Origin: Verrucomicrobiota bacterium
Lineage (GTDB): Bacteria; Verrucomicrobiota; Verrucomicrobiia; Opitutales; Opitutaceae
Direction: 5' to 3'
Assembly (NCBI GenBank): GCA_003641745.1
Contig: QNAI01000003.1
Coordinates: forward strand, 1-64,000
Length of the DNA stretch: 64,000 bases
Shown: in pieces, positions 46,438-56,243 of the stretch
Numbering within the stretch: position 1 is the stretch's first letter
How the letters are laid out: the number at the start of each line of letters is the position of its first letter
Notes under the pieces: model-generated
Told to the model about the DNA's origin: nothing
Seen by the model: the letters and a program-made list of their open reading frames with translations, nothing else
Database searches by the model: none
Made by a program: the position numbers and the translations under genes

Positions 46438-47667
46438 GTGCCCTGGTACCTCTATATAGCCCTCAAGCAACTCCTTCCCTCGGGTCGAAGATTCCCTTTT
46501 TTCACCTTCGTCTCCGTCTGCGGGGTCACGCTGGGAGTCGCCCTCCTCATCATCGTGCTGAGTGTGATGAACGGGTTCGGACGGGAAATTCGTACCAAGA
46601 TTGTGGAGACGCAAGGTGATGTTCTTGTTCAATCAGGACGGATAGAGAATGAGCCGGAGGCATTGATGACCCTGCTGGAAGCCTTCCCCGAGGTTGCGGC
46701 GGTCGCACCTTTCACCCAGGGGCCGATCATGCTGCAGTACCAGAGCCAGCCCCGCTTCCCGGTCATATATGGTATCGACCTGAAGCGGGAGCTGGAGGTT
46801 GTTCCGCTGGCGAAATTTCTCCGCAGCGGTGACCTGGACGACCTTGATGATGACTCGATTCTCGTCAGCTCGGAACTCGCCTCGGGATTGCGCCTTGGGG
46901 TCGGGGTGGAGGTCGAGGTCTATTCGCCGCTTCTGGTCGAACGTCTCAAAAACGACGAAATCCTCCTGCCGCGTGCAGTCCGGGTGGTCGGGATCTTTGA
47001 GACCGGATGGAACCAGATTGATGGAAATACCGTGATCGGATCCCTGAGGCTGATGCAGGATCTTTACGGCCTCGGAAACGGCGTCCACGGGGTCAAGCTG
47101 CGGCTGAAGGAAGGCGTCGATGTCGATACCGCGGTGCAGGCGATCAACGACCGCCTGGATTGGGGCTTTCGGGCGCTGTCCTGGATCGATAGCAACCGGG
47201 ACTTCCTCTTCGTGCTCCAACTCGAGAAAAATATCCTCTTTTTCCTGCTCCTCTTCGTCGTTCTGGTCTCGGCTTTCGCCATCACCAGTTCGCTCCTGAT
47301 CACGGTGGTCCGGAAGACACGCGAGATCGGCCTCTTCGGCGCCTTGGGCGGTAGACGGTGGCAGGTGGCCGCCTGCTTCTGCCTCCAGGGACTGGTCATC
47401 GGAGTGGCCGGGACCGTTCTGGGCTTTGGTCTGGCCTCGGTCGCCCTGGCCTTCAGGAACGACATCATCCACGCCTTTGCCAAGGTCACCCAGAGCGAGG
47501 CCGCCCTGTTGAGGTTCTATCAATTCGCCGATCTGCCATCGTATTCAAATCCCAAGGACATGATCATCATCGCCTGTGCGTCCGTTGTCATATCCACCGT
47601 TGCCGGCATGATCCCGGCCTGGCGGGCGGCGCGGCTCAAGCCGGCGGAGGCCCTGCGAACAGAATGA
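46438..47667 (+). CDS. lolC: Lipoprotein-releasing ABC transporter permease LolC/LolE type
   Basis: Inner-membrane protein that extracts outer-membrane lipoproteins for LolA. About 409 residues from the GTG at 46438, which gives the family N-terminus VPWYLYIALKQLLPSGRR; an earlier ATG (46342) would start inside lysS. One N-terminal membrane helix, a periplasmic MacB-like domain (about 45-260) and three C-terminal helices with TREIGLFGALGGRRWQV. Only one such gene is here, so it may work as a homodimer (LolF-like). Confidence 0.9.
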   Translation: MPWYLYIALKQLLPSGRRFPFFTFVSVCGVTLGVALLIIVLSVMNGFGREIRTKIVETQGDVLVQSGRIENEPEALMTLLEAFPEVAAVAPFTQGPIMLQYQSQPRFPVIYGIDLKRELEVVPLAKFLRSGDLDDLDDDSILVSSELASGLRLGVGVEVEVYSPLLVERLKNDEILLPRAVRVVGIFETGWNQIDGNTVIGSLRLMQDLYGLGNGVHGVKLRLKEGVDVDTAVQAINDRLDWGFRALSWIDSNRDFLFVLQLEKNILFFLLLFVVLVSAFAITSSLLITVVRKTREIGLFGALGGRRWQVAACFCLQGLVIGVAGTVLGFGLASVALAFRNDIIHAFAKVTQSEAALLRFYQFADLPSYSNPKDMIIIACASVVISTVAGMIPAWRAARLKPAEALRTE

Positions 47668-48365
47668 ACGCCGTCGACTCCATCCTGAGTTGCCGCGAAC
47701 TGGTCAAGACGTTTCCGAGCGGTGACCGCACGATCGAGGTGCTGACCGGGGTGGATTTCCGCCTCAATCGGGGCGAAAGCGTGAGTATCCGCGGTGAATC
47801 GGGCAGCGGAAAGACCACCCTTCTGAGTGTCCTGGCCGGGCTCGAGGAGCCCGACTCCGGCGCCCTGCTGTGGTCGGGAGAGGATGCGTTCGCAATGAGT
47901 TCGGACACAATGGCCAGGACACGGGGTGGTTTTATCGGCCTGGTCTTCCAGTCATTCTACCTGATTCCGGAGTTGAACGCCTTCGAGAACGTTCTGATCA
48001 GCCGGCGCATGCTCGGTTCGCTCAATCGGGGTTATCGGGAAAGGGCCCGCATGTTGCTTGACCGGGTGGGCCTGACCGAGCGTCTGAACCATCTTCCATC
48101 CCAACTGTCAGGGGGTGAACGCCAGCGGGTTGCCCTGGCCCGGGCGTTGATGAACGGTCCCCGGGTGGTGTTGGCCGACGAACCGACGGGCAACCTCGAT
48201 GAGACAACGGGCAATAACGTGATTGATACGCTTCTACGATTGTGCCGGGAGGATGGCGTGAGCCTCGTCCTCGTCACTCATAACCAGGAGCATGCTGCGC
48301 GCACGGATCGCCAGATGCTTCTTCACTCGGGTCACCTTGAAAAGATGAGAGAATCAACGCTGTGA
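47664..48365 (+). CDS. lolD: Lipoprotein-releasing ABC transporter ATPase LolD
   Basis: 233-residue ATPase partner of LolC. Walker A GESGSGKTT, signature LSGGERQRVALARAL, Walker B VVLADEPTGNLDE. Its ATG overlaps the lolC stop by 4 bp and its own stop overlaps the next start by 4 bp. A longer reading upstream is a different frame of lolC. Confidence 0.93.
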   Translation: MNAVDSILSCRELVKTFPSGDRTIEVLTGVDFRLNRGESVSIRGESGSGKTTLLSVLAGLEEPDSGALLWSGEDAFAMSSDTMARTRGGFIGLVFQSFYLIPELNAFENVLISRRMLGSLNRGYRERARMLLDRVGLTERLNHLPSQLSGGERQRVALARALMNGPRVVLADEPTGNLDETTGNNVIDTLLRLCREDGVSLVLVTHNQEHAARTDRQMLLHSGHLEKMRESTL

Positions 48366-49294
48366 GCGACGGGAGAATTTTAAAATGCGGGGTGGCCGGA
48401 GTCGGCTATCTCGGACGCCATCACGCCCGGATCCATGACGCCCTTGATGGGGTGAACCTGGTCGGGATCTACGAGGTTGATCGGGGCCGGGCTGACGAAG
48501 TGTGCCGGGAATACGGATGTCGGCGATTCGATTCGCTCGAAGCCCTCGGGGAAGCCTGTGATGCCGTCAGCGTGGTCGTTCCGACCGATCGGCATTGCCA
48601 GGTGGCTCTTCCCCTGCTCGAGCAGGGGTGCCACCTCCTGATCGAGAAACCGCTCTGCTCGTCGGTGGAAGAAGCGGAGAAGATTGTCGGGGCCGCCCGC
48701 CGGGCCGGCGTCCTCGTCCAGGTGGGGCACGTGGAACATTTCAACCCCGTTATGAGTTACCTCGAGACCGAGGTCGACCGTCCGCGGTTTATCACCACTG
48801 AGCGGCTCGCCCCGTTCCAACCCAGGGGCACCGAGGTCGGTGTGGTTCTGGACCTGATGATTCACGACATCGGCGTCGTCCTTCAACTCGTCCGTTCCCC
48901 GGTCGCCCGGGTGGAAAGCGTGGGTGTTTCGGTGCTTTCGCCGACCGAGGATATCGCCAATGCCCGGATCACTTTTGAGGACGGCTGTGTGGCCAATCTG
49001 AATGCCAGCCGGGTAAGCCTGAAAAAGCTGAGGGAGATTCGCGTCTTCCAGGCTTCGGCCTACCTTTCCCTCGATTTCATGAACCAGTCCGGCCATCTGG
49101 TGAAAAAGGAAGGGCTTGCCCTGAACAAGCAGGATATCCCGATCGAGAAGGGGGAGCCGTTGCGGTTGGAACTGGCGTCCTTTGTGGATAGCGTTCAGCA
49201 GGCCCGTGAGCCGAAGGTGGGTGCGTCCCTGGGGAAGTCCGCGTTGGAAGTGGCCCTCACCATCACGGAACAGATCCGCTCGGCCGGCAGCTGA
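48362..49294 (+). CDS. Gfo/Idh/MocA-family NAD(P)-dependent oxidoreductase
   Basis: A 310-residue dehydrogenase: Rossmann loop GVAGVGYLGRHHARI (about 10-24), EKPLCSSVEEAE (catalytic Lys in EKP, about 97-99) and GHVEHFNPV. GTG start overlaps the lolD stop by 4 bp. Relatives oxidise sugars and sugar nucleotides; in some lineages they sit beside lipid A genes, so a role in LPS sugar synthesis is possible, but the sequence does not decide it. Confidence 0.85.
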   Translation: MSDGRILKCGVAGVGYLGRHHARIHDALDGVNLVGIYEVDRGRADEVCREYGCRRFDSLEALGEACDAVSVVVPTDRHCQVALPLLEQGCHLLIEKPLCSSVEEAEKIVGAARRAGVLVQVGHVEHFNPVMSYLETEVDRPRFITTERLAPFQPRGTEVGVVLDLMIHDIGVVLQLVRSPVARVESVGVSVLSPTEDIANARITFEDGCVANLNASRVSLKKLREIRVFQASAYLSLDFMNQSGHLVKKEGLALNKQDIPIEKGEPLRLELASFVDSVQQAREPKVGASLGKSALEVALTITEQIRSAGS

Positions 49295-49646
49295 GATTGT
49301 AATAAATTTCCTGATACAGGAAGAAAGGACCCGGGTGCGGATCGGTTGCCGATCCGAAGCGGTTCGGTAACCGATTGGTTACCATATACTGTTTGAGCGG
49401 CTCTCCGCAGATCCGATTCTCCGGTCAGTCACATCGTTCGGATCGCGGAACGCAGAAGGGTGCCGTTTTGGCGCATTTCGCCGTCGCCCGCTACCAATCC
49501 CATGATCACCACCCATGCATACGACAGGAATTCTTCAGGGAATATGAGGTGCTTCCCCCAGTTCATAAGGGGTAGAAGAAGCCGTAATATAGGGTATTTG
49601 AGGTGAGGACCGGTCTCACAGACGAACCGTAACGGACAATAACGCT
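49295..49646. other. Intergenic region with two hairpins upstream of the Ig-like gene
   Basis: 352 bp without a gene. Two perfect hairpins: CGGATCGG/CCGATCCG (49338-49356, loop TTG) and GGTAACC/GGTTACC (49366-49383, loop GATT). They follow the lolCD operon and could end it, though no T tract follows. The last 100 bp before 49647 should hold the promoter of the Ig-like gene; a CCCC/GGGG stem at about 49555-49572 may be part of its leader. Confidence 0.45.
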
Positions 49647-51803
49647 ATGCTGGAATTTCAATCAGGCCGCCTGACGGCTTTGGCTTCACCGCGGCTGCAG
49701 GCCGCGGCCACTGTATTCGTTCTCTTATTGCAGAGGACTCCGATCCTGAAGGTCCTGGTGGAGGCGGATGTCCGGGTGGCGGCCGGTGTGCCCCAGATCC
49801 TGCGTTCGGCCGTGGTCGCAGCGGTTTCACTTGGGGCCTGCGACACGCTTTCGGGAGCGACCACCTTTGTCAGCAATCCGGAGAGTCCGGCCAATGCCAC
49901 GCAAGGGGAGGGCTTTGGCCTGGTATTCTCCGTCATCGGTTCGGAGAGTGCCGGTGGTGGCGCCGGATCGTGGACCATTTTCGGACCGCTTCCACCTGGC
50001 CTGGCCATTCCCGGCGCGGTGGAGGGCCCCACCAACACCTTCAGACTCAACCAGGGCAGCGGAGCCATCACGGGTACGCCGACCGAATCCGGTTCCTGGG
50101 ATATTACCTTCAAGGCCTGGGAGAAAGCAGGCCAGAAAGGCGAGCCGTGGAATACCGCAAAGCTGGGCCCGTTGCCTGTGGTGGAAATCGTCGTTTCGGC
50201 GAGTGGCGAACTCGTCTTCACTTCCCAGCCGATGTCGGTTTCAGTTCGGGAGGGCAAGACCTTCAACGTCGGCGTGACGACTTCGGGTACGCCGGCCCCG
50301 ACTTTCCAGTGGCGCAGGAATGGGGATCCCATTGCCGGCGCGACGAGCGAAATATTCTCGATCATCGCCGTGACTCCCGATGATGCCGGTGACTACAATG
50401 TAGTTGCGACCAATTCCGGCGGATCGATCACGAGCGACATTGCCACCCTGACCGTCACCTCGGCCCCCCGGATCACGGCCCAACCGACGGCGCAGTCTGT
50501 TGTCCTGGGCGCATCGGCGTCATTTTCAGTCGTGGCCACAGGTTCTCCCGCCCCGACCTATCAATGGCGAGCGGGTGGCTTGGCCATATCGGGGGCGACG
50601 AATGCTGACTATACGATCGTGGCGGTTTCGGACACCGATATCGGGAGCTATACGGTCTTTGTCCAGAACTCCGAGGGGTCCGTGACCAGCGAAGCTGTTG
50701 AGCTGACCATTCAGTCGGCTCCTCCTGTCATCGCGGCCCATCCCGAATCCCAGTCAGTCGTCCCGGGCGCCGGGGCGACCTTCATTGTCCGCGCGGGAGA
50801 TGGCGCCGGGTTGTCCTTTCAATGGGTCAAGGACGATGCAGCCTTGGCGGGCGAAACGGATCCCATCCTCAACCTGGAGAATCTTCGAGCCATCGATGAA
50901 GGTGACTACTCCGTCCAGGTTTCGAACGGCTCGGATACGACCACCTCTGAGGTGGCGTCCCTATCGGTTCTCGCCTCGGGATTCAGTCGGCTGAGCAATC
51001 TTTCGACCCGGACCCGAATTGAACCCGGAGCTGTTCTGATCCCTGGCTTTGCCGTGGTGGGCAACGGGCAGGTTTCTCTTCTGGCTCGGGCGGTGGGCCC
51101 AACCCTTGGAAGCCTGGGGGTGGTGGGAGTCATTTCGGATCCGCAGTTCCGGCTCGTGTCCGGACCGGATGAACTGTTTGCCAATGATAATTGGGAGGAT
51201 GCGACCGACCAGGCCAAACTTGAGGCCATTCGCGTTGCCGTGGGCGCCTTTGAATTGAATGCCGGATCGACTGATGCAGCCTTGGCTGTATCCCTTGACG
51301 CAAAGCCCTACACCTTGCCCACCACCGGGGTATCGGGTGCGACCGGCGTGGTACTGATTGAACTCTATGATGGCGGAGAGACGGGGCCGGATCAACCTCG
51401 ATTGGTCAATCTGTCCGCCCGCTCGCAGGTGGGAACGGGGGCCGACAAGTTGATTCCGGGTTTTGTGATCGCCGGCGACGTCGCCAAAACGCTTCTCATT
51501 CGCGCGGTGGGCCCGACCCTGTCCGGATTCGGAGTGGGCGGAGTGCTTGAAAACCCGGTCATGCGCCTGTTTTCCAGTTCCGGGGAACTCGCTTCCAATG
51601 ATGACTGGGGGGCTGGATCCCGAACCGACGCGATCGCGGTGGTTGCCGGAACCGTGGGCGCCTTCCCGATCGATTCGTCGAGCAGGGATGCGGCGCTCCT
51701 CATCACCTTGAATCCGGGAGCCTACACCGTGCAGGTGTCGGGTGTGGATAACACGACCGGCGTCTGCCTGGTCGAAGTTTACGAAGTCCCTCCCGCCCCC
51801 TGA
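49647..51803 (+). CDS. Secreted Ig-like domain protein with two RAVGPTL modules
   Basis: A 718-residue exported protein. An unusual leader (about 1-72: LLLQRTPILKVLVEAD, then PQILRSAVVAAVSLGACD and TLSGAT) is followed by a putative-Ig/cadherin-like domain (about 75-185), three Ig-like domains (about 188-280, 281-370, 371-455, with FQWRRNG, YQWRAGG, FQWVKDD) and two copies of a C-terminal module with LLARAVGPTLGSLG / LLIRAVGPTLSGFG and ANDNWEDA / SNDDWGAG. Such tandem modules are frequent in Opitutales secreted proteins. No catalytic domain is present; a surface-binding or scaffold role is inferred. Confidence 0.8.
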   Translation: MLEFQSGRLTALASPRLQAAATVFVLLLQRTPILKVLVEADVRVAAGVPQILRSAVVAAVSLGACDTLSGATTFVSNPESPANATQGEGFGLVFSVIGSESAGGGAGSWTIFGPLPPGLAIPGAVEGPTNTFRLNQGSGAITGTPTESGSWDITFKAWEKAGQKGEPWNTAKLGPLPVVEIVVSASGELVFTSQPMSVSVREGKTFNVGVTTSGTPAPTFQWRRNGDPIAGATSEIFSIIAVTPDDAGDYNVVATNSGGSITSDIATLTVTSAPRITAQPTAQSVVLGASASFSVVATGSPAPTYQWRAGGLAISGATNADYTIVAVSDTDIGSYTVFVQNSEGSVTSEAVELTIQSAPPVIAAHPESQSVVPGAGATFIVRAGDGAGLSFQWVKDDAALAGETDPILNLENLRAIDEGDYSVQVSNGSDTTTSEVASLSVLASGFSRLSNLSTRTRIEPGAVLIPGFAVVGNGQVSLLARAVGPTLGSLGVVGVISDPQFRLVSGPDELFANDNWEDATDQAKLEAIRVAVGAFELNAGSTDAALAVSLDAKPYTLPTTGVSGATGVVLIELYDGGETGPDQPRLVNLSARSQVGTGADKLIPGFVIAGDVAKTLLIRAVGPTLSGFGVGGVLENPVMRLFSSSGELASNDDWGAGSRTDAIAVVAGTVGAFPIDSSSRDAALLITLNPGAYTVQVSGVDNTTGVCLVEVYEVPPAP

Positions 51804-51871
51804 TCGCCGCTCCTTGCCCGATGCCCGGATCCGTGCCGCGCTGACAGTCTCGAATTAATCATAGTACCCTC

Positions 51872-53056
51872 ATGCTTCATCCACAGTGGTTTCCTTCGAT
51901 GCGATCCGGCGGAAAGAGTCATTTCCGGATTTCGCTGTTCGTGCTCGCGTTCAGCCTGCTCCAGCCCAAGGGGGCGCGGGCGGAATACTCGGCCAGCTTC
52001 AAGATCCAGGACTACCAGGAGGATGACGACCGTATCCGGGTCAAATCGCAATACCTGCTGGGGAAGGCGACCATCGGTGATGACTTCGTGCTCAAGGTCG
52101 AAGGCCTGGTCGATTCCATATCGGGAGCGACGCCATCCGGCCAACCGGCACCGGAAGACAGCGACCAGGTGCCGCTGTCCGATCTTTCCGATCGCCGCAA
52201 AGCCGTGATCATCGACGCGTCCAATCAATTTGGCCCGCAGAACGTGACCTTCCAATTCGCCTACAGCACGGAAAGCGACTACGACTCGACCGGGTATACC
52301 CTTCGCACCATCAGGGGCTTCAATCAGAAGAATACAACCCTGACTCTGGGCTATTCCTATACCGATGATCTCATCCGGGCCGGTTACCATGAGGAGTGGC
52401 AACCACGGGATACCCATGATTTTCTGATCGGGATTACCCAACTTCTCGACCCCAGGACCATTCTCAAGGTCAATCTGTCCTATGGCGACGCCTCGGGCTT
52501 TCTCAACGATCCCTACAAGATCATCCAGAAGACCACCGAAATTCTCCCGGGCCTGTCGCTCCCGTTGACCTTTCCGGAGAACCGCCCGACCCACCGGACG
52601 AAGACGGTTCTCTATTCCGAACTGACCCACCATCTGGAGAAGATCAACGCGACGGTGGAAGGGTCGTATCGGTTTTTCCATGACAACCAGGGCGTCGGCA
52701 GCCATACCCTGGGGCTGGCCTGGTTTCAGAAGATCGGTTCGCAATTCATTCTCCGTCCCTATGTGCGCTGGTACCGGCAGTCGACCTCGGATTACTACTA
52801 TGTGTCGCTGGACGGGACTCCCATTGAACCCACGCCGATCCCAACTGGAAACGCGCCCTACTATTCGGCCGATTACCGGATCTCGGCTTTGGATGGCTTG
52901 ACCTACGGGATCAAGGGCATCGTGGATCTGACTGAGTGGTTGCGTCTCGACCTCACCGCCGAGCGCTACGAGATGACCGGTCGGGATGACCAGACCTCAG
53001 CTTCCGCCTATCCGAAAGCGACTGTCCTGACCGCGGGGGTGAGCGCATGGTTCTAG
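51872..53056 (+). CDS. DUF3570 outer-membrane beta-barrel protein
   Basis: A 394-residue protein with a signal peptide (FRISLFVLAFSLLQPKGARA) and the alternating pattern and terminal aromatic (SAWF) of a barrel. DUF3570 hallmarks: QDYQEDDDRIRVKS and DSISGATPSGQP (about 75-90). In other bacteria DUF3570 is found with ApbE, a thioredoxin and DUF4266, as here. Its last 10 bp overlap the ApbE start. Function unknown; likely an outer-membrane part of a redox pathway. Confidence 0.85.
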   Translation: MLHPQWFPSMRSGGKSHFRISLFVLAFSLLQPKGARAEYSASFKIQDYQEDDDRIRVKSQYLLGKATIGDDFVLKVEGLVDSISGATPSGQPAPEDSDQVPLSDLSDRRKAVIIDASNQFGPQNVTFQFAYSTESDYDSTGYTLRTIRGFNQKNTTLTLGYSYTDDLIRAGYHEEWQPRDTHDFLIGITQLLDPRTILKVNLSYGDASGFLNDPYKIIQKTTEILPGLSLPLTFPENRPTHRTKTVLYSELTHHLEKINATVEGSYRFFHDNQGVGSHTLGLAWFQKIGSQFILRPYVRWYRQSTSDYYYVSLDGTPIEPTPIPTGNAPYYSADYRISALDGLTYGIKGIVDLTEWLRLDLTAERYEMTGRDDQTSASAYPKATVLTAGVSAWF

Positions 53057-54042
53057 AATCGGAGTTGAAGGGCGCCTCTGCCTTGAAGGTGTCGACGGGA
53101 CCACGGGAGGGTGTTTCCAAGCTCGCCTTCCGGGCGCTCGGCACGGAATGCTCGATTCAATTTGTTGCGGAAAACGAGGACCAGGCAAATTCCTTTGGAC
53201 AGGCCGTCGTGGATTGGGTGGGGAAATTCGAGGCGCGTTACTCGCGGTTTCGGGATGACAGCCTGATCAGCCGGATAAACGCGGCGGCTGGACGGGATTG
53301 GGTCGGGATTGATGATGAGATGGATCTGCTGCTCCAACTCTGTGATCAACTTTACATGACGACTTCGGGTATCTTTGATCCGACCGCGCTTCCGTTGATT
53401 CGGCTTTGGTACCGGAGCCTTGGAATGTCGGTGCCGGAGATACCACCCGACTCGGCGGTTCGGGATGCGATGGGAAAAGTGGGCTGGCTTCGGGTGGAAA
53501 AGGATGCGGGCAGGATCAGACTGCCCGACGAGGGGATGGCCATCGACTTTGGGGGCTTCGGCAAGGAGTATGCGGTCGATCAGACCGCGAGCATCGCGGA
53601 GGCGCACGGGCTCGAGGCCTACCTGGTCGACTTTGGACACGATATCAGGGTGGCCGGAGCGCCTCCTGGTTTACCCTGTTGGCACATCGGCCTCGAGGAT
53701 CCTTTCAGACCGGGGCAATGCTGGAGCAGCCTGGGCATCACCGATAGAGGAATTGCCTCGTCCGGCGACTATATCCGGTCTTTTGTCCGCGATGGACGGC
53801 GGTATGGGCACATCATCGACCCGCGAACGGGCTACCCGGTTTCGAATGAAAACCGGTGTGTGACGGTGCTGGCGGATACCTGTCTTGAAAGCGGTATTCT
53901 TTCGACCACCGCCTTTATCCTGGGTCCCGGGGAGGGCCGCAATCTGATCGATGCCACTTTCGGAGCCGAAGGCTGTGTCGTTTCTGAAAAAGAGACCGAT
54001 GAAACACGAGGATTTTACCAATATGTCGTACCCGAAAATTAA
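53047..54042 (+). CDS. FAD:protein FMN transferase (ApbE family)
   Basis: Flavinyl transferase that attaches FMN from FAD to Ser/Thr of target proteins, usually outside the cytoplasm. Visible motifs: ARYSRFRDDSLISRIN, DFGGFGKEYAVD, ASSGDYIRSF and HIIDPRTGYP. 331 residues, but I see no clear signal peptide or lipobox, unlike many ApbE proteins. No target domain (FMN-binding, DxxxSGAT) is recognised in the window apart from the DUF3570 segment DSISGAT, which is similar and worth testing. Confidence 0.87.
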   Translation: MVLESELKGASALKVSTGPREGVSKLAFRALGTECSIQFVAENEDQANSFGQAVVDWVGKFEARYSRFRDDSLISRINAAAGRDWVGIDDEMDLLLQLCDQLYMTTSGIFDPTALPLIRLWYRSLGMSVPEIPPDSAVRDAMGKVGWLRVEKDAGRIRLPDEGMAIDFGGFGKEYAVDQTASIAEAHGLEAYLVDFGHDIRVAGAPPGLPCWHIGLEDPFRPGQCWSSLGITDRGIASSGDYIRSFVRDGRRYGHIIDPRTGYPVSNENRCVTVLADTCLESGILSTTAFILGPGEGRNLIDATFGAEGCVVSEKETDETRGFYQYVVPEN

Positions 54043-54544
54043 AATTCTGACTGCGATCAGCGCTTGCCTGTTTTTCTTCGCGACAGGATCCATGGCTGTT
54101 CATTGGTCCGAAGGGGATCGCCTGCCCAACCTGGAGGAGTTCGTCCTGGATGGAGCGATACCGGATCTGGAAGGCAAGGTTGTATTGGTCGACTTCTGGG
54201 CCTCCTGGTGCACCCCCTGCAAGGCCTCCTTCCCCGCCTTGGATGAAATCGAGGCCACCTACCGCGATCAGGGACTGGTTATTCTCGGGATCAACGTCGA
54301 CACGGATTCCAAAGCCTTCGAAAAGTTCATGAAGCGAATGAAGCCGGGTTTCTCTGTTGTTCGGGATTCCAGACAGGAAGTGGTCGCCGATGCCGGAGTC
54401 GAGACCATGCCGTCGTCGTTCCTGGTTGGTCGCGATGGAGTGATCCGTTCGGTTCACTCGGGTTATCACGGCAGGAAGACGCGCGACCAATATATCGGCG
54501 AAATCGAGTTGCTGCTGGCTGAACCGGATGGGGGTGAAGGATGA
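54023..54544 (+). CDS. Secreted TlpA-type thioredoxin
   Basis: 173-residue thiol-disulfide protein with a signal peptide (IKILTAISACLFFFATGSMA) and the active site WASWCTPCK (about 60-68), then cis-Pro in TMPSSFLVGRDG. ATG 54023 overlaps the ApbE gene by 20 bp and follows a GAGG 11 bases earlier; ATG 53999 is an alternative. Probably reduces a partner in the cell envelope, such as the CGCN tail of the next protein (inference). Confidence 0.87.
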   Translation: MSYPKIKILTAISACLFFFATGSMAVHWSEGDRLPNLEEFVLDGAIPDLEGKVVLVDFWASWCTPCKASFPALDEIEATYRDQGLVILGINVDTDSKAFEKFMKRMKPGFSVVRDSRQEVVADAGVETMPSSFLVGRDGVIRSVHSGYHGRKTRDQYIGEIELLLAEPDGGEG

Positions 54545-54762
54545 AGGGGCGACTGATGGTGCTTGCCTTGCTCCTGATCGGAGGACTCGGGCTCTCCGGG
54601 TGCACCACGGTACAGCCGTGGGAGAGAGGCTATCTGGCCGACTATACCATGCGCGAGGATCGCGACGAACTCGAGGTCAACATGAGTGAGCACATGTATT
54701 TCTCCCGGGAAGCTTCAGCCGGAGGGAAAGGCGTCGGCGGCGGTGGATGCGGCTGTAACTGA
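54541..54762 (+). CDS. DUF4266 small lipoprotein with C-terminal CGCN
   Basis: 73 residues: signal with lipobox LGLSGC (Cys 21), a conserved middle VQPWERGYLADYTMR and a Gly-rich end GGGGCGCN. DUF4266 proteins share this cysteine tail and accompany DUF3570, ApbE and thioredoxin. The CGC pair could be a redox site or a metal ligand. Start overlaps the thioredoxin stop by 4 bp (ATGA). Role unknown. Confidence 0.85.
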   Translation: MKGRLMVLALLLIGGLGLSGCTTVQPWERGYLADYTMREDRDELEVNMSEHMYFSREASAGGKGVGGGGCGCN

Positions 54763-54800
54763 AAAGATTTGAAATGGATTGATCCGAATGGCCCGAACGG

Positions 54801-54853
54801 GGGGTCATTCCTCAAGATCTTGCATGCCAATGCGAGATCTGAGGTTTGACCCC
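54801..54853 (+). repeat. Palindromic element 3a
   Basis: 53 bp, GGGGTCA/TGACCCC ends, loop TGCATGCCAATGCG, inner stem AGATCT/AGATCT and outer CCTC/GAGG. Stem differs from 1a, 2a and 3b but pairs fully. Confidence 0.87.
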
Positions 54854-54910
54854 TTCGAACGATCCGCCCCCTGTTGCCATTCGAAGGGTCCCATCACGCA
54901 TGGCGCCCAC

Positions 54911-54963
54911 GGGGTCATTCCTTGCATTCCTGCATGCCAATGCGGGAATCAAGGTTTGACCCC
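54911..54963 (+). repeat. Palindromic element 3b
   Basis: 53 bp, same ends and loop as 3a, but stems ATTCC/GGAAT and CCTTG/CAAGG with one mismatch. Same direction as 3a, 57 bp apart. The 299 bp between DUF4266 and lpxB hold nothing else. Confidence 0.87.
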
Positions 54964-55061
54964 TTCGAATAGCATTAACTCGGCGCCATTCGGCTCATTC
55001 CTTTTCAGGCGCATTGCAGATCGGGCTCGATTGCGCCCGCGAATGTGATTCACTCCTGTGA

Positions 55062-56243
55062 ATGGGTTCAACCCAACCTGTACCGGCCGAATTCGCGCCT
55101 CCCTCCCATGGCGCTGTCGACCTGTTGATCATTGCCGGAGAGCATTCCGGCGATCAGCAGGCAGCCCGTATGCTGCGCGGGGTCATGAAGCGGCGGCCGG
55201 ACCTGAAAGTGGCGGCCGTGGGTGGCACCGAGCTCCGTGAGGCAGGCGCCCAGCTGCTTTTTGACCTGACTCATTCGTCGGTCGTTGGCTTGGCTGAGGT
55301 GCTCAGAAACTACGGGTTCTTCCGGCGGATTTTTGCGCTTACCAGACGGTGGATTGACGTTCACCAACCCAGCGTTGTCTGCCTGGTCGACTATCCCGGA
55401 TTCAACCTGCGGCTGGCCAAGGCGCTGTTTCGCGATGGCATCAGTCGAAAGGGCGGTGGACGAGTGTCGGTTGTCTACTACATCAGCCCCCAGCTCTGGG
55501 CCTGGAAAGCGGGTCGACGGTTTACCATGGCGCGCCACCTCGATGCCCTTTCGGCAATTTTTCCGTTTGAGGTCGAGTGCTATGCCGACACCAATCTACC
55601 GGTCGATTTTGTCGGCCATCCGTTCATGTCCGACGATTATGCATCCTCACTTGGCTACGATCGGGAGGGTCCGGTGCTCCTCCTGCCGGGCAGTCGGCGG
55701 GCGGCGGTATCGAGGATCGCGCCGATCCTGCTCGATTCGTATGCCCGGTATCGGTCGGGTGGGGGCAGGCGCGAGGCGGTTATAATCACGCCCGGCCTGG
55801 AACTCGAACGTTTGATTGGTGGCTACCTGGGCTTGCGGCCTGAGATTCAAACCCATGTGAAACTGATTCCGAAGGAGGAATCGATCGCGGGAGCGGCTGT
55901 CCTCACCAGTTCGGGCACCATGTCGCTGGCCTGCGCCCTGGCGGGCATACCGGGGGCGATCACCTACCGGGCCAATCTTATCACCTACCTGATCGCGGTT
56001 CAGGTCATCCGGGTGCCTTACCTGGGCATTGCCAACCTTATTCTGGAGTCCCCCATCTATCCGGAGTTTCTGCAGAGAGCGGCTCAGCCGGGCCGATTGG
56101 CACTGGAAATCAAGGCGGCCCTTGAGGATGAGGAGCGCATCAGGCAAACCGCGGTCGCGGCGGCCCAACTTCGAAAACGTCTCCATTGTCCGGATACGGG
56201 TGGGGCGCCGGAATGGATGATCAACTGCTTGGACGAACGCTGA
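55062..56243 (+). CDS. lpxB: Lipid-A-disaccharide synthase
   Basis: Joins UDP-diacylglucosamine and lipid X in lipid A synthesis, a peripheral membrane glycosyltransferase. Motifs: IIAGEHSGDQQAA (about 22-34), YYISPQLWAWK, DFVGHPF, LLPGSRRAAVSRI and LTSSGTMSLACAL. 393 residues, usual length. Supports an LPS-bearing outer membrane. Its last 23 bp overlap the end of hemA on the other strand. Confidence 0.95.
   Translation: MGSTQPVPAEFAPPSHGAVDLLIIAGEHSGDQQAARMLRGVMKRRPDLKVAAVGGTELREAGAQLLFDLTHSSVVGLAEVLRNYGFFRRIFALTRRWIDVHQPSVVCLVDYPGFNLRLAKALFRDGISRKGGGRVSVVYYISPQLWAWKAGRRFTMARHLDALSAIFPFEVECYADTNLPVDFVGHPFMSDDYASSLGYDREGPVLLLPGSRRAAVSRIAPILLDSYARYRSGGGRREAVIITPGLELERLIGGYLGLRPEIQTHVKLIPKEESIAGAAVLTSSGTMSLACALAGIPGAITYRANLITYLIAVQVIRVPYLGIANLILESPIYPEFLQRAAQPGRLALEIKAALEDEERIRQTAVAAAQLRKRLHCPDTGGAPEWMINCLDER

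Follow-up and report, generated by a model that had tools for sequence, protein, structure and literature searches.

In a 64,000-nucleotide stretch of a Verrucomicrobiota bacterium (contig QNAI01000003.1, positions 1 to 64,000; the window), four overlapping genes encode a DUF3570 barrel, an ApbE-family flavin mononucleotide (FMN) transferase, a TlpA/ResA-like thioredoxin, and a DUF4266 lipoprotein. We judge the chances to be evenly balanced that these form a protein-flavinylation system dedicated to the outer membrane, in which thiol electrons are passed to a flavin located there. The ApbE, which lacks a leader and carries a swapped metal-site residue, appears from its sequence to be a dedicated DUF3570 subtype that goes beyond the published core set, and the gene upstream of the cluster, coding for an immunoglobulin (Ig)-like protein, is probably a fifth component of the system. 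Set against the literature searched, the new content is this leaderless subtype and the Ig-like candidate substrate, each associated with DUF3570 in the genomes compared.

The core set itself is not new, since clusters of ApbE, DUF3570, thioredoxin-like and DUF4266 genes, with DsbD and (316) without it, were published by Meheust et al. (2021; PMC8238504). That study reports that the ApbE of Chlorobium luteolum attaches flavin to the DUF3570 protein of that species at two [ST]GA[ST] sites, as judged by co-expression and Ser-to-Ala mutants, and calls the function of the DUF3570 clusters uncertain; its main text, supplements aside, does not mention cytosolic ApbE, immunoglobulin domains or Verrucomicrobia. 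An earlier note on this DNA, made from the letters alone, had described a recurrent gene set whose role was open; recurrence and open role both hold, but the set had already been described and FMN had been demonstrated on the C. luteolum protein (Meheust et al., 2021). Within the literature searched, DUF3570 and DUF4266 are named only in that study, DUF3570 is absent from the main text of a 2024 paper by that group, and a search combining the word stems flavinylat and Opitut found nothing.

The DUF3570 barrel and its predicted flavinylation site

The four overlapping genes proposed in the earlier note (barrel, flavinyl transferase, thioredoxin and lipoprotein) are borne out by the open reading frame (ORF) coordinates and by Pfam profile matches above cut-off (Table 1), with overlaps between successive genes of 10, 92 (20 with a later thioredoxin start) and 4 bases. 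The exact order DUF3570-ApbE-thioredoxin-DUF4266 recurs in 84 of 111 loci, the remainder being truncated contigs or variants. These loci comprise the window, 30 loci from a phylum sample and 80 from a scan with a search pattern that included the flavinylation site; at least three were fetched twice (L043 and L127, L048 and L143, L060 and L101), so that counts over the 111 loci are slightly inflated. Because their search pattern held the site, the 80 scan loci were left out of the analysis of site conservation, which employed an alignment of 27 DUF3570 proteins picked by the Pfam model and not by the site. Genome-wide associations refer to 288 genomes, 30 with DUF3570 and 258 without, in each of which the best 17 candidates (Ig-like head profile) or the best seven (ApbE subtype model) were scored.

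The window DUF3570 protein, with a signal peptide predicted by eye at residues 1–37, fits the acceptor motif [ST]GA[ST] at one site, DSISGAT, with Thr87 (Thr50 of the mature protein) as the predicted acceptor; no second flavin site was found in it. In the alignment the glycine of this site is invariant (27/27), the alanine is present in 25 sequences (Ser in two), and the acceptor is Thr in 21 and Ser in six, in agreement with the earlier note, which had read DSISGAT as an ApbE-type site. The first residue is Asp in 18 and Asn in nine sequences, and the fourth is Ser (16), Ala (7), Thr (2) or Val (2). This variation relaxes the strict pattern D-x-x-[ST]-G-A-[ST], yet an acceptor is kept in all 27. 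A second xGATP lies within a long insert in five of the 27 relatives, members of a clade in which the loop at this position is 50–119 residues longer. By 300 shuffles, the strict motif is expected 0.12 times by chance in a greedy selection of 51 window ORFs (20,914 residues in total); the DUF3570 frame was dropped from this set, and the motif occurs in it once, in the upstream Ig-like gene.

An AlphaFold2 model of DUF3570 built with 27 sequences (predicted local distance difference test (pLDDT) 94.8; predicted template modelling score (pTM) 0.88; 18 strands listed) is a closed antiparallel barrel, which, together with the signal peptide and an aromatic C-terminus (Trp-Phe), supports the barrel assignment of the earlier note. 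The fold matches (Foldseek, VIA) are outer-membrane barrels in general (best Z 22.8, root-mean-square deviation (rmsd) 3.3, 274 residues aligned), and since the best of them are general barrels (a BamA model, PelB, BcsC and CymA) they give no function. Thr50 of the mature protein is located in the model at the end of strand 3, on the side of the long loops, where the segments include ones of 13 (11–130 in homologues), 36 (25–42) and 11 (10–14) residues. Every long or variable loop is found on this side, opposite turns of 1–6 residues. Going by the rule that normally holds for such barrels, the side bearing the FMN threonine in the model is presumably extracellular.

Variants of the locus were also observed. 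In one (L052, genome G121) a stop codon (TAG) breaks DUF3570, while ApbE, thioredoxin and DUF4266 seem intact; another (L085) has DUF3570, DUF4266 and the Ig-like gene with no adjoining thioredoxin or ApbE. A divergent DUF3570 type (L063, L064, L065, L152, L153), present in other Verrucomicrobiota and on Hymenobacter plasmids, has the site D-Y-x-S-S-A-S, a secreted ApbE without the residue swap described below and, where both genes were seen, DUF4266 upstream of DUF3570.

The leaderless ApbE subtype and the thiol partners

The window ApbE matches PF02424 with 225.1 bits (curated cut-off 25.6) and keeps the active-site residues His255 and Ser, the corresponding columns holding His in 102/102 and Ser (Ser240-equivalent) in 101/102 sequences. 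Canonical secreted ApbEs are recognized by a signal peptide or lipobox, and the window protein has neither: there is no in-frame upstream start codon or hydrophobic segment, and the longest possible N-terminus is without a hydrophobic stretch. By a hydropathy threshold of our own, used in place of SignalP, a hydrophobic N-terminus is missing from 92 of the 94 subtype ApbEs measured (L086 and L088, two sister loci, depart from this, and L053 is borderline at 1.80), whereas 93 of 97 partner thioredoxins have one.

Two substitutions characterize the subtype. The aspartate that binds both Mg ions in Listeria FmnB (Asp301), where alanine at metal-site residues greatly cut or abolished activity according to the portion of PMC8906456 consulted, is replaced by Gly283, and the glycine after the lysine that contacts flavin adenine dinucleotide (FAD) is replaced by Glu174. 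This Glu/Gly swap is present in 97/97 ApbEs tied to this DUF3570 locus type, and also in a Vibrio plasmid copy, from another phylum; it is absent from all five comparison ApbEs, which have Gly/Asp (three from the divergent loci L063–L065 and two others of the same genome). Neither the missing signal peptide and Mg-binding aspartate nor the second D-x-x-S-G-A-T in the upstream gene had figured in the earlier note.

A subtype model, with which the window ApbE scores 486.6 bits, gave 28 matches of at least 436 bits in 26 of the 288 genomes, all of them with DUF3570, the next best match scoring 244 bits. The subtype is present in 26/30 DUF3570-bearing genomes and 0/258 others (Fisher p 4e-33, treating related genomes as independent). 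Those DUF3570-bearing genomes that lack it are G059, G126 and G216, which have divergent loci with a secreted canonical ApbE, and G180, with a fragment. Among 20 of 28 weaker matches that were checked, 18 have Gly/Asp, one Gly/Glu and one Glu/Gly; the lone Glu/Gly is a second copy in the DUF3570-bearing genome G283, and the 17 from DUF3570-negative genomes are all without the swap. The DUF3570 locus of G283 has no adjoining ApbE, and a subtype ApbE stands alone after type II secretion genes.

The likelier start of the window thioredoxin is the ATG at 54023, ahead of a hydrophobic signal sequence. Its match to the ResA NCBIfam model (5.9e-26, 91.4 bits) is under the cut-off of 170, and as no TlpA, ResA or DsbE NCBIfam cut-off is reached, the protein is only thioredoxin-like, by Pfam. 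The thiol partner with a CGC tail suggested in the earlier note is upheld by DUF4266: 102 of 103 model matches collected without a tail filter end in GCGC[NYF], so that the CxC is invariant in 102/102 in-frame matches; the remaining one, read out of frame within the thioredoxin gene of the window, is an artefact. That note had staked its proposal on the conservation of DSISGAT and of the CGC tail, and both are conserved. The genome of the window carries DsbD_TM on another contig (C15), but DsbD_TM is found in 280 of the 288 genomes and its presence is therefore uninformative on the electron donor. Relatives in the plasmid collection are confined to Vibrio and Hymenobacter; the Vibrio plasmid order, read from ORFs, is thioredoxin-DUF4266-DUF3570-ApbE-DsbD, which with DsbD in the same run places the thiol donor in the operon.

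The upstream Ig-like protein and its surroundings

The Ig-like gene ends 68 bases 5′ of DUF3570 on the same strand. No Pfam family covers its head, which contains LLLQRTP and ends in DTLSGAT (He_PIG matches start at residue 75), and a profile of the head finds 91 ORFs in 75 of the 111 loci, mostly just downstream of DUF4266. All 91 end in [HDNQ][STA]x[ASVT]GA[TS] (Gly 91, Ala 91, Thr 87, Ser 4), a pattern very much like that of the DUF3570 sites in these loci, [DN][AST][IV][SATV]G[AS][TS]. GA[TS] had been the criterion for the seed, to which 52 of them belong, and it is kept by all 39 from outside the seed as well. Across genomes the head was found in 16 of 288: 15 with E ≤7.4e-10, all DUF3570-bearing, and one (G091) that is DUF3570-negative, with E 4.7e-4 and an internal stop. 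Its frequency is 15/30 in DUF3570-bearing genomes versus 0–1/258 in the rest, and 11/11 versus 0–1/14 in the window's own family; the other 15 DUF3570-bearing genomes, including all nine of the long-insert clade, do not have it. Judged by its motif, the Ig-like protein may be a second substrate of ApbE, flavinylated at Thr72.

The AlphaFold2 model of the Ig-like protein (pLDDT 79.7, with low confidence in the first 70 residues) places a helix at residues 48–69, then Thr72, and a strand from residue 73 that leads into the Ig fold. The window genome contains a second, unlinked copy of the head with the same DTLSGAT and a different C-terminus. Two or three tandem Ig-like genes with the QRTP head follow DUF4266 in L081, L098 and other loci, two copies in L098 being nearly identical; such tandem copies suggest a varying surface repertoire.

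Type II secretion is the likely exporter of the Ig-like protein. The genes gspG–M lie directly upstream of DUF3570 on the same strand, within ~190 bases or overlapping, in 33 of 110 DUF3570 loci (32 when a locus fetched twice counts once), as identified by Pfam (T2SSG 2e-28, GspH and T2SSK) and, for L and M, by similarity among loci, M matching Pfam weakly. Type II secretion genes also precede the lone ApbE of G283 and an unlinked head protein in G143; none is present at the window cluster. A type II system private to the cluster was considered and rejected, since 27 of the 37 genomes (of 288) with GspM relatives are without DUF3570: it serves the order as its general secretion system and adjoins the operon in about one-third of loci.

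In the window, the cluster and the Ig-like gene are flanked by an ABC-transporter/oxidoreductase pair (GFO_IDH_MocA, 48362–49294) and lpxB (55062–56243), as though they had been set among genes for lipid A or lipoprotein export (region 47358–56243). Within the gap of 300 bases that follows DUF4266, the 16-base word ggtttgaccccttcga occurs at 54843 and 54953; it has no further exact match in the window and is possibly a small repeat element.

Table 1. Window coordinates of the cluster genes, the upstream gene and the sites discussed
Feature	Position	Strand	Details
Ig-like secreted protein, LLLQRTP head	49647–51803	+	718 amino acids; Ig_3 8.7e-32
DTLSGAT, candidate second flavinylation site	49842–49862	+	Thr72 of Ig-like protein
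DUF3570 outer-membrane barrel	51872–53056	+	394 amino acids; PF12094 3e-66
DSISGAT, predicted flavinylation site	52112–52132	+	DUF3570 residues 81–87; acceptor Thr87 (Thr50 mature)
ApbE-family FMN transferase, leaderless	53047–54042	+	331 amino acids; PF02424 1.5e-66
ApbE Glu174 codon	53566–53568	+	GKE; Gly in canonical ApbE; follows FAD-contacting Lys
ApbE Gly283 codon	53893–53895	+	replaces Mg-ligating Asp (Asp301 of Listeria FmnB); alignment to solved ApbEs
Thioredoxin, periplasmic, TlpA/ResA type	53951–54544	+	AhpC-TSA 9.9e-18; Redoxin 1.5e-17; WCTPC
DUF4266 lipoprotein	54541–54762	+	73 amino acids; PF14086 2e-21; lipobox LSGC; tail GGGGCGCN

Proposed electron path, its rivals and known systems

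In the mechanism that we propose, the leaderless ApbE would work in the cytosol, taking FMN from FAD and attaching it to Thr87 of the DUF3570 precursor either ahead of export or while export is under way, and would probably flavinylate Thr72 of the Ig-like neighbour as well. Sec would export the modified proteins, and DUF3570 would fold into its outer-membrane barrel so that the FMN sits where strand 3 ends on the outer side and probably points into the lumen. In the periplasm the thioredoxin, supplied with electrons by the cell's DsbD-type protein, would then reduce the C-terminal Cys-Gly-Cys arm of DUF4266, and this long, glycine-rich, membrane-tethered arm would enter the barrel and reduce the FMN, from which electrons would pass to an outside acceptor, directly or via the Ig-like surface protein, whose gene accompanies those for type II secretion in many relatives. 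The gene set, its conservation, the association of subtype and genome and the barrel model were computed here, and FMN on DUF3570 was demonstrated by others on a homologue; what we infer is that modification comes first, in the cytosol, that DUF4266 serves as the arm, that electrons flow outward to an acceptor, and that the Ig-like protein carries flavin too. Meheust et al. (2021) produced the C. luteolum substrate in the cytosol and recovered it from the pellet with 6 M guanidine, which implies that an unfolded barrel can be modified. The complete version, a haem-free outer-membrane conduit in which a cytosolic ApbE with a relocated metal ligand tags DUF3570 and the Ig-like protein, Sec and type II secretion export them, and the DUF4266 arm drives electrons to a surface flavoprotein, seems to us rather unlikely.

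Several points weigh against a dedicated flavinylation system of this kind. The system has no known electron acceptor and no known growth phenotype. The Mg-binding aspartate of ApbE is lost, at a position where alanine cripples FmnB (PMC8906456, in part), and activity must therefore be assumed. DsbD is absent from the neighbours of the window cluster, and one DUF3570-bearing genome (G160) has no DsbD_TM match. The membrane orientation of the barrel is assigned by rule, and the lumen-facing position of Thr50 rests on a polar phase at residues 36, 38, 40 and 44, a pattern that residues 42 and 46 break. Covariation between the DUF3570 and Ig-like sites at the residue before GAT (33 equal of 69, against 21.9 on permutation, with 0/20,000 as high) vanishes when the tree is considered (about two independent pairs agree, none disagrees and the others show no difference; median p 0.5), and was dropped as support.

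In the main rival to flavinylation of the neighbour, the GAT of the Ig-like head may instead mark a signal-peptidase I site (small-x-Ala, then Thr) of a bipartite signal peptide, leaving FMN on DUF3570 only and making the neighbour a co-operonic surface protein, a reading to which we give somewhat less than an even chance. Positions −3 (A, S, T or V) and −1 (Ala) obey the peptidase rule, the modelled helix stops three residues short of Thr72 and resembles a signal h-region, and heads with two hydrophobic stretches, as in the Ig-like protein, resemble extended signal peptides. A conserved +1 residue can be ancestral (DUF3570 of the same loci has Glu at +1 in 71 of 96), and the tree-aware covariation test is not significant. 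Flavinylation of the head is better matched by the Gly at −2 in 91/91 and the Thr or Ser at +1 (87 and 4 of 91), kept in 39/39 outside the seed, since true signal sites of these loci, read heuristically, vary at −2 (Arg in 56/96 DUF3570 and 32/85 thioredoxin sequences); by the −6 residue, which is always H, D, N or Q; and by the near confinement of the head to genomes with the dedicated ApbE. It is quite improbable, in our estimate, that the ApbE subtype is without the usual FMN transfer and is a chaperone-like pseudoenzyme or employs another metal site or nucleotide cofactor. The invariance of both substitutions (97/97) and the severe effect of losing the Asp301 ligand in FmnB (PMC8906456, in part) point that way, but His255, the active-site Ser and the substrate acceptor are all kept, and the new carboxylate beside the Lys that contacts FAD could stand in for the missing aspartate.

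Other roles for the barrel flavin would alter the direction or the purpose of electron flow. Working inward or as a detoxifier, it might take electrons from, or reduce, oxidants at the surface (oxygen, peroxide, quinones), with thioredoxin and DUF4266 as a thiol repair or sensing branch. Reduced flavin reacts easily with oxygen, the sampled hosts, to judge by their record titles, include many aerobic freshwater and soil bins, and the window shows no linked gene for a dedicated acceptor; on the other hand, in the part of the neighbour families that was annotated, none that recurs is a peroxidase, a catalase or a sensor, and we consider such a role unlikely. A role in metal import, in which electrons at the outer membrane reduce Fe(III), or copper or zinc is bound by the CxC tail, appears to us similarly improbable. 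Meheust et al. (2021) describe 25 DUF3570/DsbD-type clusters with the iron transporter VIT1, and a CxC is able to bind metals, but neither VIT1 nor another metal transporter stands beside the window cluster (the neighbours being an oxidoreductase, the Ig-like protein and LpxB) or occurs among the annotated neighbours; the metal pathway entertained in the earlier note found no support within the window.

If the flavinylation system is real, an orphan cluster of several phyla would gain a named, testable role and electrons would be carried over the outer membrane without haem. ApbE substrates would then be modifiable before export, the need of ApbE for the Mg-binding aspartate would be overturned, and a new class of flavinylated surface proteins would be recognizable by a simple sequence signature.

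The window cluster shares with those described by Meheust et al. (2021) the same four families, DUF3570 as ApbE substrate and the CxC tail of DUF4266. It differs, as far as those clusters are described in the sections consulted, in having no adjoining DsbD (and so sits with the DsbD-less clusters), one site instead of two, a TlpA/ResA-like thioredoxin in place of PF13899, an ApbE without a leader, and a neighbouring Ig-like gene that carries a second motif. With canonical ApbE, Ftp and FmnB (PDB 1vrm, 5mgy, 7esa and others) the window ApbE has in common the fold family, the active-site His and Ser and the Lys of GGxxK; in contrast to them, it has Gly for the Mg-binding Asp, Glu for the Gly after the Lys, and no signal peptide or lipobox. 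The FmnB-PplA pair of Listeria monocytogenes likewise involves an extracytosolic protein with ApbE-attached FMN that passes electrons outward (PMC12052999, in part), but it is Gram-positive, with no outer-membrane barrel and no thiol donor. The porin-cytochrome conduits (MtrCAB) offer an analogy in how they work, combining a barrel with redox centres across the outer membrane, and the Mtr barrel 6r2q_B is among the fold matches of DUF3570 (Z 17.1, rmsd 8.5, 292 residues aligned), as are many other barrels. No CxxCH haem motif was seen by eye in the four window proteins, and relative to MtrCAB the window system would employ FMN and thiols in place of haem.

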